A stretch of DNA of 64,000 nt from Natronomonas marina. GTDB taxonomy: Archaea; Halobacteriota; Halobacteria; Halobacteriales; Haloarculaceae. Both the position numbers and the translations under genes were made by a program. The DNA lies in contig NZ_CP101154.1 of NCBI RefSeq assembly GCF_024298905.1, positions 1,240,001 through 1,304,000 on the forward strand. The letters are read 5' to 3'. Of the stretch, positions 16,196 to 25,055 are shown in pieces (the first letter of the stretch is position 1; every line of letters starts with the position of its first letter). The notes beneath the pieces are model-generated. The model saw only the letters and a list, made by a program, of their open reading frames with translations, was not told the DNA's origin and searched no databases.

Positions 16196-17896
16196 ATGGC
16201 ACAACAGATGGGCAACCAGCCCCTCATCGTTCTCTCGGAGGAGAGCCAGCGAACGTCCGGGCGCGACGCCCAGTCGATGAACATCACCGCCGGCAAGGCG
16301 GTCGCCGAGTCCGTACGGACGACGCTCGGTCCCAAAGGGATGGACAAGATGCTCGTCGACTCGACGGGCAACGTCGTCGTCACGAACGACGGCGTCACCA
16401 TCCTCGGCGAGATGGACATCGAGCACCCGGCGGCCAACATGATCGTCGAGGTCGCCGAGACACAGGAGGAGGAGGTCGGTGACGGCACGACCACGTCGGT
16501 CGTCATCGCCGGCGAACTCCTCTCGAAGGCCGAGGACCTCCTCGAACAGGACATCCACGCCACCATCCTCGCACAGGGGTACCGGCAGGCCGCCGCCGAG
16601 GCCAAGGAGATTCTCGAGGACATCGCCATCGACGTCGACGCCGACGACACCGAGATCCTCGAGTCCATCGCCGCCACGGCGATGACCGGCAAGGGCGCCG
16701 AGGCCTCGAAGGACCTGCTGGCGGAACTCACCGTCCAGGCCGTCCGTGCGGTCGCCGACGACGGCGACATCGACACGGACAACATCAAGATCGAGAAGGT
16801 CGTCGGCGGCGCCGTCGACGAGTCCGAACTCGTCGAGGGCGTCATCGTGGGCAAGGAGCGCGTCCACGACAACATGCCGTACTTCGCCGAGGACGCCGAC
16901 ATCGCGCTGCTGGACACGCCCATCGAGGTCAAGGAGACCGAGATCGACGCCGAGGTCAACGTCACCGACCCCGATCAGCTCGAGCAGTTCCTCGAGCAGG
17001 AGGAACGCCAACTGCGGGAGATGGTGGACAAGCTCAAGGAGGTCGGCGCTGACGTCGTCTTCTGCCAGAAGGGCATCGACGACATGGCCCAGCACTACCT
17101 CGCCCAGGAGGGCATCATCGCCGTCCGCCGGGCGAAGAAGTCCGACATGAAGGCGCTGGCCCGCTCGACCGGCGGCCGCGTCGTCTCCAACATCGACGAC
17201 ATCACCGAGGAAGACCTCGGCTTCGCCGGCTCCGTCGCCCAGAAGGACATCGCCGGCGAGGAGAAGATCTTCGTCGAGGACGTCGAGGAGGCCCGCGCGG
17301 TCACGCTCATCCTCCGCGGCGGCACCGAGCACGTCGTCGACGAGGTCGAGCGCGCAGTCGAGGACAGCCTCGGCGTCGTCCGCACGACGCTGGACGAGGG
17401 CAAGGTCCTGCCCGGCGGCGGCGCCCCCGAGACGGCGCTGGCGCTCGGCCTGCGTGACTACGCCGACTCCGTCGGCGGCCGCGAGCAGCTGGCCGTCGAG
17501 GCTTTCGCCGACGCCGTCGACGTCATCCCGCGGACGCTGGCGGAGAACGCCGGTCTCGACCCCATCGACTCGCTGGTCGACCTCCGCAGCCAGCACGCCG
17601 ACGACGGCTCCGTCTTCGGGCTGGACGCCTACACCGGCGACGTCGTCGACATGGAAGACGACGGCGTCGTCGAGCCGCTCCGCGTGAAGACCCAGGCCAT
17701 CGAGTCCGCCACCGAGGCGGCCGTGATGATCCTCCGCATCGACGACGTCATCGCCGCCGGCGACCTGAAGGGCGGTAGCTCCGACGACGACGACGGCGAG
17801 GACATGCCCGGCGGTGCCGGCGGCCCCGGCGGCGGCATGGGCGGCATGGGCGGCGGCATGGGCGGCATGGGCGGCGGCATGGGCGGCATGATGTAA
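16196..17896 (+). CDS. Thermosome subunit (group II chaperonin)
   Basis: The thermosome is a double-ring ATP-dependent chaperonin in the cytosol. The 566-residue protein has [16 protein letters not shown] and [11 protein letters not shown] near the N-terminus, the nucleotide motif [16 protein letters not shown], the apical domain with the helical protrusion, and LPGGGAPE in the C-terminal equatorial domain. It ends in the characteristic Gly-Gly-Met repeats (GGMGGM) that extend into the ring cavity. The ATG at 16196 is chosen because the longer frame from 16094 would run through the promoter. Haloarchaea have two or three paralogues; which one this is cannot be told. Confidence 0.97.
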
Positions 17897-22240: not shown

Positions 22241-22975
22241 TCAGAAGGAGACGTTCGTCTCGGTGCCTTCGGTCGCCTCTTCGAGGCCGTCCTCGGCCAC
22301 GTCGTCGGTGAACTGCTCGCTCATCTCGGTCTCGAGGAGGACGTCCTCGAACTCGCTTTGGAAGCGTTCGCTGACGCGTCGTGATTCGTTTTGGGCCTCG
22401 ACGACCCGGCGATACCGCCGGACCGTCGACGCGGAGACGTCGAGGCGCTCGGCGATCTCGCTCGTGGGGTACTCCTCGGCGAGCAACTCCCGGAGGTCGG
22501 TGAGTTCGAAGGGGGGGTCGGTATCCCGGTCGCGGACGAGATGGAGGTCCATACGGGCGCGGAAGACGTCGAGGCGCTCGGCGATCTCGCTCGTGGGGTA
22601 CTCCTCGGCGAGCAACTCCCGGAGGTCGGTGAGTTCGAAGGGGGGGTCGGTATCCCGGTCGCGGACGAGATGGAGGTCCATACGGGCGCGGAAGACGTCG
22701 CGGCGCGAGACGTCGAGGGCGTCGGCGATAGCGGCGTCGGAGTCGCCCTCGTAGAACCGTTCGACGACCCCTGCGAGTTCCTCGTCGGACAGCGCGGTCT
22801 CGAACTCGTGGTCGGCCCGCATCCGCTCGACTATCTCGACGAGTCGTTCCTCGGACGCGCGCTCGGCGGTCAGCGAGCCTCGGGGTTCCTCTTGGGTTTC
22901 TGTCACGGTATCTTCGTCCGCGACATCCTTGAATATATCCCGCAACTCTTCCGTGTTTTCGGTCACAGTGGCCAT
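22241..22975 (-). CDS. Conditioned-medium-induced protein 4-like HTH protein with internal duplication
   Basis: A 244-residue acidic protein resembling the haloarchaeal family annotated as conditioned medium-induced protein 4. The N-terminus TEELRDIFKDVADEDTVTETQEE is the family signature. The core carries two helix-turn-helix-like units: DAAIADALDVSRRDVFRARM (about 78 to 98) and TSEIAERLDVSASTVRRYRR (about 170 to 190). A 43-residue block (DVFRARMDLHLVRDRD to SEIAERL) occurs twice in a row, about residues 92 to 134 and 135 to 177, from a perfect DNA duplication. A TATA box (TATATAA) about 22 nt upstream suggests a leaderless transcript. A regulatory role is inferred from the HTH units. Confidence 0.75.
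   Translation of the reverse strand: MATVTENTEELRDIFKDVADEDTVTETQEEPRGSLTAERASEERLVEIVERMRADHEFETALSDEELAGVVERFYEGDSDAAIADALDVSRRDVFRARMDLHLVRDRDTDPPFELTDLRELLAEEYPTSEIAERLDVFRARMDLHLVRDRDTDPPFELTDLRELLAEEYPTSEIAERLDVSASTVRRYRRVVEAQNESRRVSERFQSEFEDVLLETEMSEQFTDDVAEDGLEEATEGTETNVSF
22435..22700. repeat. Perfect 129-bp tandem duplication inside a gene
   Basis: Bases 22435-22571 and 22564-22700 are identical, with period 129 bp (exactly 43 codons). The shared junction sequence is AGACGTCG, an 8-bp microhomology at each border. No substitution separates the copies, so the event is recent or the copies are being homogenised. Confidence 0.95.
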
Positions 22976-23056
22976 TTAATTGTGTCTTGACAATATATAA
23001 ACGTATCGTTCGCTGTCAATCGGTACAGTGAAGTCGGTTGACGAGCGAGGCCGCTC

Positions 23057-23647
23057 ATGGCCGATGCCACGACTTCCGAGGTCGACCTCGTCGGCGACGA
23101 AACCACGCTCAACATCGCGCGGGCGGCGCTGTTCGCGGCGCTGACGGGCGCGTTCGCGTTCGTCTCGTTCCCGATTCCCGTGACGTCCATCAACGTGACG
23201 CTACAGGTTCTCGGCGTGTTCCTCGCGGGAATCCTGCTCGGCCCGGTGTGGGGCGGGGGCGCGATGGTCCTGTACCTGGCGGCGGGCGCCGTCGGCGCGC
23301 CCGTCTTCGAGGGCGGTTCGGCGGGGCTCGCCAACCTCCTCGGCGGCGACCCGTCCTTCGGCTACCTCTGGTCGTACCCGCCGGCGGCGGCCCTCGTCGG
23401 CTACGTCGTTCACGGTACGTCGGAACTCCGGGAGCCGTCGGCGGTTCCCGTTTCACGGCTCGTGGCCGCGATGACCGCCGGAACCGTCGTCATCTACGCC
23501 CTCGGGACTCTCGGTATCATGTACGTCCAGGCCATCGGTCCGGTCGCGGCCATCCTGGCGGGCGTGGTGCCGTTCGTCCCCGCCGAGATAATCAAGATGG
23601 TCGCCGCAATCCTCGTCGTGCAGACCGACGCCATCCGCGCCGGATGA
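23057..23647 (+). CDS. bioY: Biotin ECF transporter S component BioY
   Basis: BioY is the membrane subunit that binds biotin in energy-coupling factor transporters. The 196-residue protein has about six TM helices with the family features FPIPVTSINVTLQVLGVFLAGILLGP (residues 38 to 63), the GAPVFEGGSAGLANLLGG loop, and FVPAEIIKMVAAIL near the C-terminus. The stop overlaps the start of the ATPase gene (ATGA), beginning a three-gene operon bioY-bioM-bioN. The start at 23057 sits 17 bp after an upstream TGA and gives a normal N-terminus. Confidence 0.95.
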   Translation: MADATTSEVDLVGDETTLNIARAALFAALTGAFAFVSFPIPVTSINVTLQVLGVFLAGILLGPVWGGGAMVLYLAAGAVGAPVFEGGSAGLANLLGGDPSFGYLWSYPPAAALVGYVVHGTSELREPSAVPVSRLVAAMTAGTVVIYALGTLGIMYVQAIGPVAAILAGVVPFVPAEIIKMVAAILVVQTDAIRAG

Positions 23648-24342
23648 TACGGACGGACGGGCTGACCCACCGCTACGGCGACACCACCGCCGTCGACGGC
23701 GTCTCCCTCACCGTCGAGGACGGTTCCTTTCTCGTCCTGGCGGGCGCCAACGGCTCCGGCAAGACGACCCTCGTCAGGCACTTCAACGGTCTCCTCGAAC
23801 CGGACGAGGGCGAGGTGTACGTCGACGGCGACCCGGTCGGCGAGGACCTGGTGGCGGCCAGAACCGCCGTCGGGATGGTCTTCCAGAACCCCCGTGACTG
23901 CTTCGTCGCCGCCACCGTCGGCGCCGACGTCGCCTTCGGCCCGGAGAACCTGGGACTGCCCCGCGAGGAGATAGACGCCCGCGTCGGGTCGGCGCTGTCG
24001 GCGGTCGGGATGGCCGACCGGCTGGACGAACGCATCGACCGGCTCTCGGGCGGCGAGCAGGCCCGGGTCGCCATCGCCGGCGCGCTGGCCATGGAGCCGT
24101 CCCACCTCGTGCTGGACGAACCGTTCACCGGGCTGGACTGGCCCGCGAGGGAGCAACTGTTCGACCGCCTCGCGTCCCTCCACGAGACCGGAACGAGCGT
24201 CGTCGTCGTCACCCACGACCTCGGAGCGGTGAGCGAACTCGCCGACAGGGTGGTCGTCCTCGCCGACGGCGAGATCGCCGTCGACGGCCCGCCCGCGGCG
24301 GTCGAGTCGGACCTGGAGGCGCTCGACGTCCGGCCGCCATGA
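23644..24342 (+). CDS. bioM: Biotin ECF transporter ATPase BioM (EcfA)
   Basis: An ABC ATPase of 232 residues that powers the ECF transporter. Walker A is GANGSGKTT (about 34 to 42), the Q-loop is VFQNPRDCFV (about 79), the signature is LSGGEQARVAIA (about 137), Walker B is LVLDEPFTGLD (about 156), and the H-switch is VVVVTHDLG (about 185). The ATG overlaps the bioY stop and its own stop overlaps the bioN start, so expression is coupled. A single ATPase implies a homodimer, as in the three-component BioMNY systems. Confidence 0.95.
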   Translation: MIRTDGLTHRYGDTTAVDGVSLTVEDGSFLVLAGANGSGKTTLVRHFNGLLEPDEGEVYVDGDPVGEDLVAARTAVGMVFQNPRDCFVAATVGADVAFGPENLGLPREEIDARVGSALSAVGMADRLDERIDRLSGGEQARVAIAGALAMEPSHLVLDEPFTGLDWPAREQLFDRLASLHETGTSVVVVTHDLGAVSELADRVVVLADGEIAVDGPPAAVESDLEALDVRPP

Positions 24343-25055
24343 CGCTGGCCTACGAACCGGGGGCGACGCCTGTCCACCGGCTCGACCCCCGGTCGAAGCT
24401 TCTGGTGCAGGTGGCCTTCGTCGCGGCCGCCTTCGTCTACACGACGCCCCGGGGCCTCCTCGCGCTGACGGCCCTCGTCGGCGGCATACTTGCGGTGGCC
24501 CGGACGTCGCCGCTCGGGAGCCTCTGGGAGTTCCGGTTCGCCCTGCCCGTCGTCGTCGTGGCACCGCTTCTGGAGGGCGCGACGCTCGGGTCACCGTGGT
24601 TCGTCGTCGCCGACGCGGTCGGGCCGGCGCTTGCGAGCTATCGTGTTGTCCTCGTGTTGCTCCTCACCGCCGCCTACGTCCGGACGACGCCAGTCCGGGA
24701 GTCCCGGGCGGCGATCCAGCGGACGGTGCCCGGCAAGGCGGGCCAGTTTCTCGGGATGGGTGCGGCGTTCGTCTTCCGGTTTCTCCCCGTCCTGCAGGAC
24801 GATGTCGCCCGCATCCGGGACGCCCAGCGTGCACGCCTCGGCACCGAGCGGTCGATAGTCGACCGAATCCGGCTCCTGACCGTCGCCGCGCTGAACCGCG
24901 CCTTCGAGCGGGCCGACCGTCTCGCGCTCGCGCTACAGGCTCGCTGTTTCGCCTGGAACCCGACCCTCCCCGAGTTGCGGTTCGGCTACCGTGACGGGCC
25001 GGCGCTCGCGCTCGCTGCCGGCCTTCTCGTCGTCGCCCTCAACGGCGCAATATAA
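24339..25055 (+). CDS. bioN: ECF transporter T component BioN (EcfT)
   Basis: EcfT links the ATPases to the substrate-binding S component. The 238-residue protein begins with the typical VHRLDPRSKLLVQVAF and has TM helices up to about residue 115. The coupling-helix region bears ESRAAIQRTVPG and DAQRARLGTERS, where the family has its short Ala-Arg-Gly/Ser motifs. It starts in a 4-nt overlap with bioM. The operon ends here; a separate TATA box precedes the next gene. Confidence 0.92.
   Translation: MTLAYEPGATPVHRLDPRSKLLVQVAFVAAAFVYTTPRGLLALTALVGGILAVARTSPLGSLWEFRFALPVVVVAPLLEGATLGSPWFVVADAVGPALASYRVVLVLLLTAAYVRTTPVRESRAAIQRTVPGKAGQFLGMGAAFVFRFLPVLQDDVARIRDAQRARLGTERSIVDRIRLLTVAALNRAFERADRLALALQARCFAWNPTLPELRFGYRDGPALALAAGLLVVALNGAI

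Follow-up and report, generated by a model that had tools for sequence, protein, structure and literature searches.

Tandem duplications that arise at short homologies, by slippage or by microhomology-mediated routes, show an exact copy in tandem with a short direct repeat at its boundaries, and the locus described here likewise has this form. Microhomology-mediated end joining has been described in Haloferax volcanii (PMC7776575), where the products reviewed are gene deletions and rearrangements, in contrast to the tandem duplication reported here. Judged by titles and abstracts, no relevant literature was found on short-homology in-frame duplications in bacteria.

The Natronomonas marina protein that carries the duplication is related to "conditioned medium-induced protein 4" (Cmi4), the name given to plasmid-borne haloarchaeal homologs in Halomarina. 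The protein from a Halomarina sp. BCD28 plasmid is alike over most of the length of the query (residues 1-224, 92%) at 32% identity (E 5e-16), while homologs on Haladaptatus and Halococcus plasmids carry the names "response regulator receiver protein" or "hypothetical protein", and no near DNA match was found on plasmids. In Haloferax volcanii, disruption of a gene named cmi4, a possible orthologue, is on record (PMC3462420). Full-length matches elsewhere hold one copy of the segment, whereas the Natronomonas marina gene holds two. A PDB sequence search with the protein found no relative.

The duplicated segment and its host gene

The window, that is, the whole 64,000-nucleotide stretch of Natronomonas marina DNA that was analyzed, contains the following features at this locus.

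22241-22975, minus strand: gene for the two-HTH protein, an ORF of 244 aa (201 aa minus the extra copy); Pfam HTH_23
22435-22563, minus strand: repeat unit, gene-downstream copy, approximately residues 136-178; exact period-129 match of 137 bp
22564-22692, minus strand: repeat unit, gene-upstream copy, approximately residues 93-135; exact period-129 match of 137 bp
22693-22700, minus strand: third AGACGTCG, closing the repeat; 8-bp microhomology, reading CGACGTCT on the coding strand
22708-22715, minus strand: fourth AGACGTCG, in the first HTH, at the LDVS codons
23057-23647, plus strand: BioY biotin transporter subunit, divergent from the HTH gene; Pfam BioY, E 1.9e-34
24339-25055: ecfT (CbiQ); Pfam CbiQ, E 2.4e-22

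The first-pass annotation had described a perfect 129-bp tandem duplication at 22435-22700 with 8-bp microhomology at its junctions, in frame within an HTH regulator-like gene, and each of these points was borne out. Positions 22435-22571 and 22564-22700 are identical without a mismatch, an exact self-match of 137 bases at offset 129, so that the array comprises two 129-bp units and a closing 8-bp AGACGTCG, which recurs at 22435-22442, 22564-22571 and 22693-22700. The two copies of the segment thus abut, are identical, and share 8 bp at their joint. TRF reports the array with period 129 and a score of 540; no other array in the window comes near it. A chance origin of the 137-bp match is excluded, because no other exact match at offsets of 20-1499 bp anywhere in the window exceeds 42 bp, a length reached in a low-complexity array. 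A separate, perfect 21-bp x 3 array, GGCGGCGGCATGGGCGGCATG, is found by TRF at 17828-17890.

The host gene is a 244-codon minus-strand ORF whose product contains two HTH_23 stretches (Pfam, E 3.3e-13). The repeat unit was originally said to cover the segment between the two HTH-like units plus half of the second; the linker and the leading half of HTH2 do lie within it, but the description needs correcting in that the final helix of HTH1 is also inside.

Single-copy relatives and the age of the duplication

Matches to the protein were found in 14 of 20 genomes of the genus and in 140 of 146 genomes of the family, Natronomonas marina included in each count. They are mostly full-length and single-copy, and the duplication is absent from every match listed among the 139 matching genomes of the 145 other family members. 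Two overlapping partial matches (query 2-135 and 89-199) occur, within the 146 family genomes, in Natronomonas marina only. Three further genomes (G022, G023 and G135) show a match broken into two pieces that lie close together with essentially no overlap, a pattern that differs from that of the duplication and may reflect an insert, a stretch that has diverged or perhaps a frameshift; a few weak family matches are partial. With one 43-residue copy taken away, the remaining 201 residues line up gap-free across the joint with the orthologues, most of which measure 197-200 aa when counted from the corresponding start. The single-copy state of the orthologues in genus and family indicates that one copy is ancestral and the duplication derived in the Natronomonas marina lineage, and the earlier suggestion of a derived duplication without counterpart in relatives was upheld by this comparison across the 146 family genomes. 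A 24-mer spanning the junction had no match in viral contigs.

The two copies show zero differences over approximately 31 synonymous sites, placing dS below ~0.1. The duplication had been called very recent; it is young by this measure, while the "very" is only loosely bounded, and gene conversion could hide its age by keeping the copies alike.

Perfect identity, together with the restriction of the duplication to this one genome in the family search, is also what would be seen if assembly or polishing had introduced the extra copy into a gene that has only one in the cell. We regard such an artefact as unlikely, since the genome is assembled in 2 contigs at 99.98% completeness and a joint with 8-bp microhomology is expected from a biological event. 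The background of tandem duplication was surveyed in 40 sampled stretches (800 kb), 20 further stretches (400 kb) and the window, ~1.26 Mb of the 3.99-Mb genome in all, and no other full exact duplication with a period of at least 100 bp was found in this sample. A lone duplication in ~1.26 Mb therefore argues against a systematic assembly fault rather than against a single one. Other perfect tandem arrays in the same ~1.26 Mb have periods of 24-48 bp or multiples thereof, several of them in low-complexity coding DNA, and at longer offsets there are some short or partial direct repeats. One perfect 39-bp tandem array (L087:6225-6396) contains a 133-bp exact match at period 39.

Probable origin between short repeats and the reading frame

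In the single-copy gene, CGACGTCT stands at both ends of the 129-bp unit and contains the Asp-Val codons that each HTH repeats. We propose that in a single-copy two-HTH gene 129 bp were duplicated in tandem between the two 8-bp direct repeats, whether through slippage at replication, through unequal exchange or through end joining. The lineage-specific duplication is most likely microhomology-mediated, near neutral or mildly harmful, and without a designed function. Counting against this explanation, the fourth AGACGTCG (22708-22715) belongs to a 12-bp direct repeat shared with the second HTH at an offset of 144 bp in the single-copy gene, which was present yet unused by the duplication; the longest homology was therefore not decisive.

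The preserved reading frame carries little information on selection, because direct repeats in this coding DNA are themselves mostly in register: a count over 35 kb of probable coding sequence in the window puts 85% of repeats of at least 8 bp (n = 1162, offsets 20-499) and 92% of those of at least 10 bp at a spacing that is a multiple of three. The in-frame state needs no selection and is the default outcome here. The locus illustrates neatly how, when a genome is high in GC, codon periodicity puts microhomology duplications in frame by default, and in such genomes "in frame" should not count as a sign of selection.

The first-pass annotation had further raised the possibility of a phase-variable length switch or a population polymorphism; in such a case the 137-bp repeats would recombine and copy number would shift the activity of the protein. 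Perfect direct repeats of 137 bp can recombine, and a change of length near this site is tolerated, as in the Halopenitus persicus homolog discussed below. The switch found no support, however: the unit of 129 bp is 43 codons, so gain or loss of a copy keeps the frame and would not turn the gene off. Moreover, there are just two copies, every full-length family match is single-copy, and no variation in the copy number of the 129-bp unit was seen among the other species of the family search (one genome per species). We therefore consider a polymorphism or length switch very unlikely. It is hardly to be expected that a half-HTH altering DNA-site spacing combines with copy number varying in the population to give reversible regulation, for example of the divergent bioY operon.

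The Halopenitus persicus homolog (L035:5287-5364) carries an 18-bp unit repeated 4.3 times, in frame, directly before the conserved FRARMDL, and most of its units contain GACGTC. Length near the FRARMDL motif has changed more than once in the family, independently.

The altered protein and its gene neighbourhood

The spacing of the two HTH units was predicted to be altered, and the spacer is indeed longer by 43 residues, with HTH1 (~residues 61-105) and HTH2 (~158-200) both whole in the two-copy protein. As read from the sequence, the front of HTH2 in the insert passes directly to HTH1's final helix, with SRRDV around the turn left out. The insert would thus be a half-HTH hybrid, five residues short around the turn, between intact HTH units, and it is unlikely to work as a third HTH. 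The cell probably still makes the protein, in which the DNA-binding units would sit farther apart; this change is likely to be close to neutral or slightly harmful. The AlphaFold models, both weak (5 sequences, mean pLDDT ~60), give almost all of residues 106-151 a pLDDT below 50 in the two-copy protein, with block means of ~74-91 for the HTH units, and the same helix order apart from the insert in a single-copy relative (L031); Foldseek found no match for the two-copy model in the PDB at E <= 0.001. In nature, proteins with several HTHs may get their start when half of a DNA-binding domain is duplicated in this way.

The duplicated block contains FRARMDLHL, the most conserved motif of the family, and could in consequence have a selected effect, a point against the near-neutral duplication favored above. 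That the extra segment is a selected third DNA-contacting or spacing module is nonetheless extremely unlikely: the reading frame is intact without a stop in the gene, and the conserved helix is in the insert, but frame retention is expected by chance, the hybrid is without five residues at the HTH turn, AlphaFold does not model the insert confidently, and the host gene is dispensable.

Dispensability within the genus follows from five of its species, in which the bioY-ecfA-ecfT locus is conserved but the HTH gene is absent from it. G001, G005, G008, G017 and G019, each at least 94% complete, retain bioY, ecfA, ecfT and the Fe-S gene, while tblastn of the 10-kb region gave no convincing copy of the HTH protein and whole-genome searches gave no match, with only a weak one (E 1.5e-4) in G017. 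Because the gene is dispensable, a tolerated accident, as proposed for the microhomology-mediated duplication, is plausible.

Past the HTH gene the order is bioY, ecfA, ecfT and then a large Fe-S protein, a neighbourhood conserved in relatives; the HTH gene is divergent to bioY-ecfA-ecfT (window 22241-25055) in the fetched gene-bearing genus members and in two Halobellus species. Regulation of bioY by the HTH protein may be suggested as a lead only, since bioY persists in the five genus members that lack the gene and other genera show the reverse: in several of them the HTH gene lies near the Fe-S protein gene, with no bioY in the fetched neighbourhood. No relevant literature on BioY regulators in haloarchaea was found, judged by titles and abstracts. 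Lastly, on a Halomarina plasmid (L157:24-3606) the homolog adjoins genes annotated as rod-determining factor RdfA and an archaea-specific SMC-related protein.
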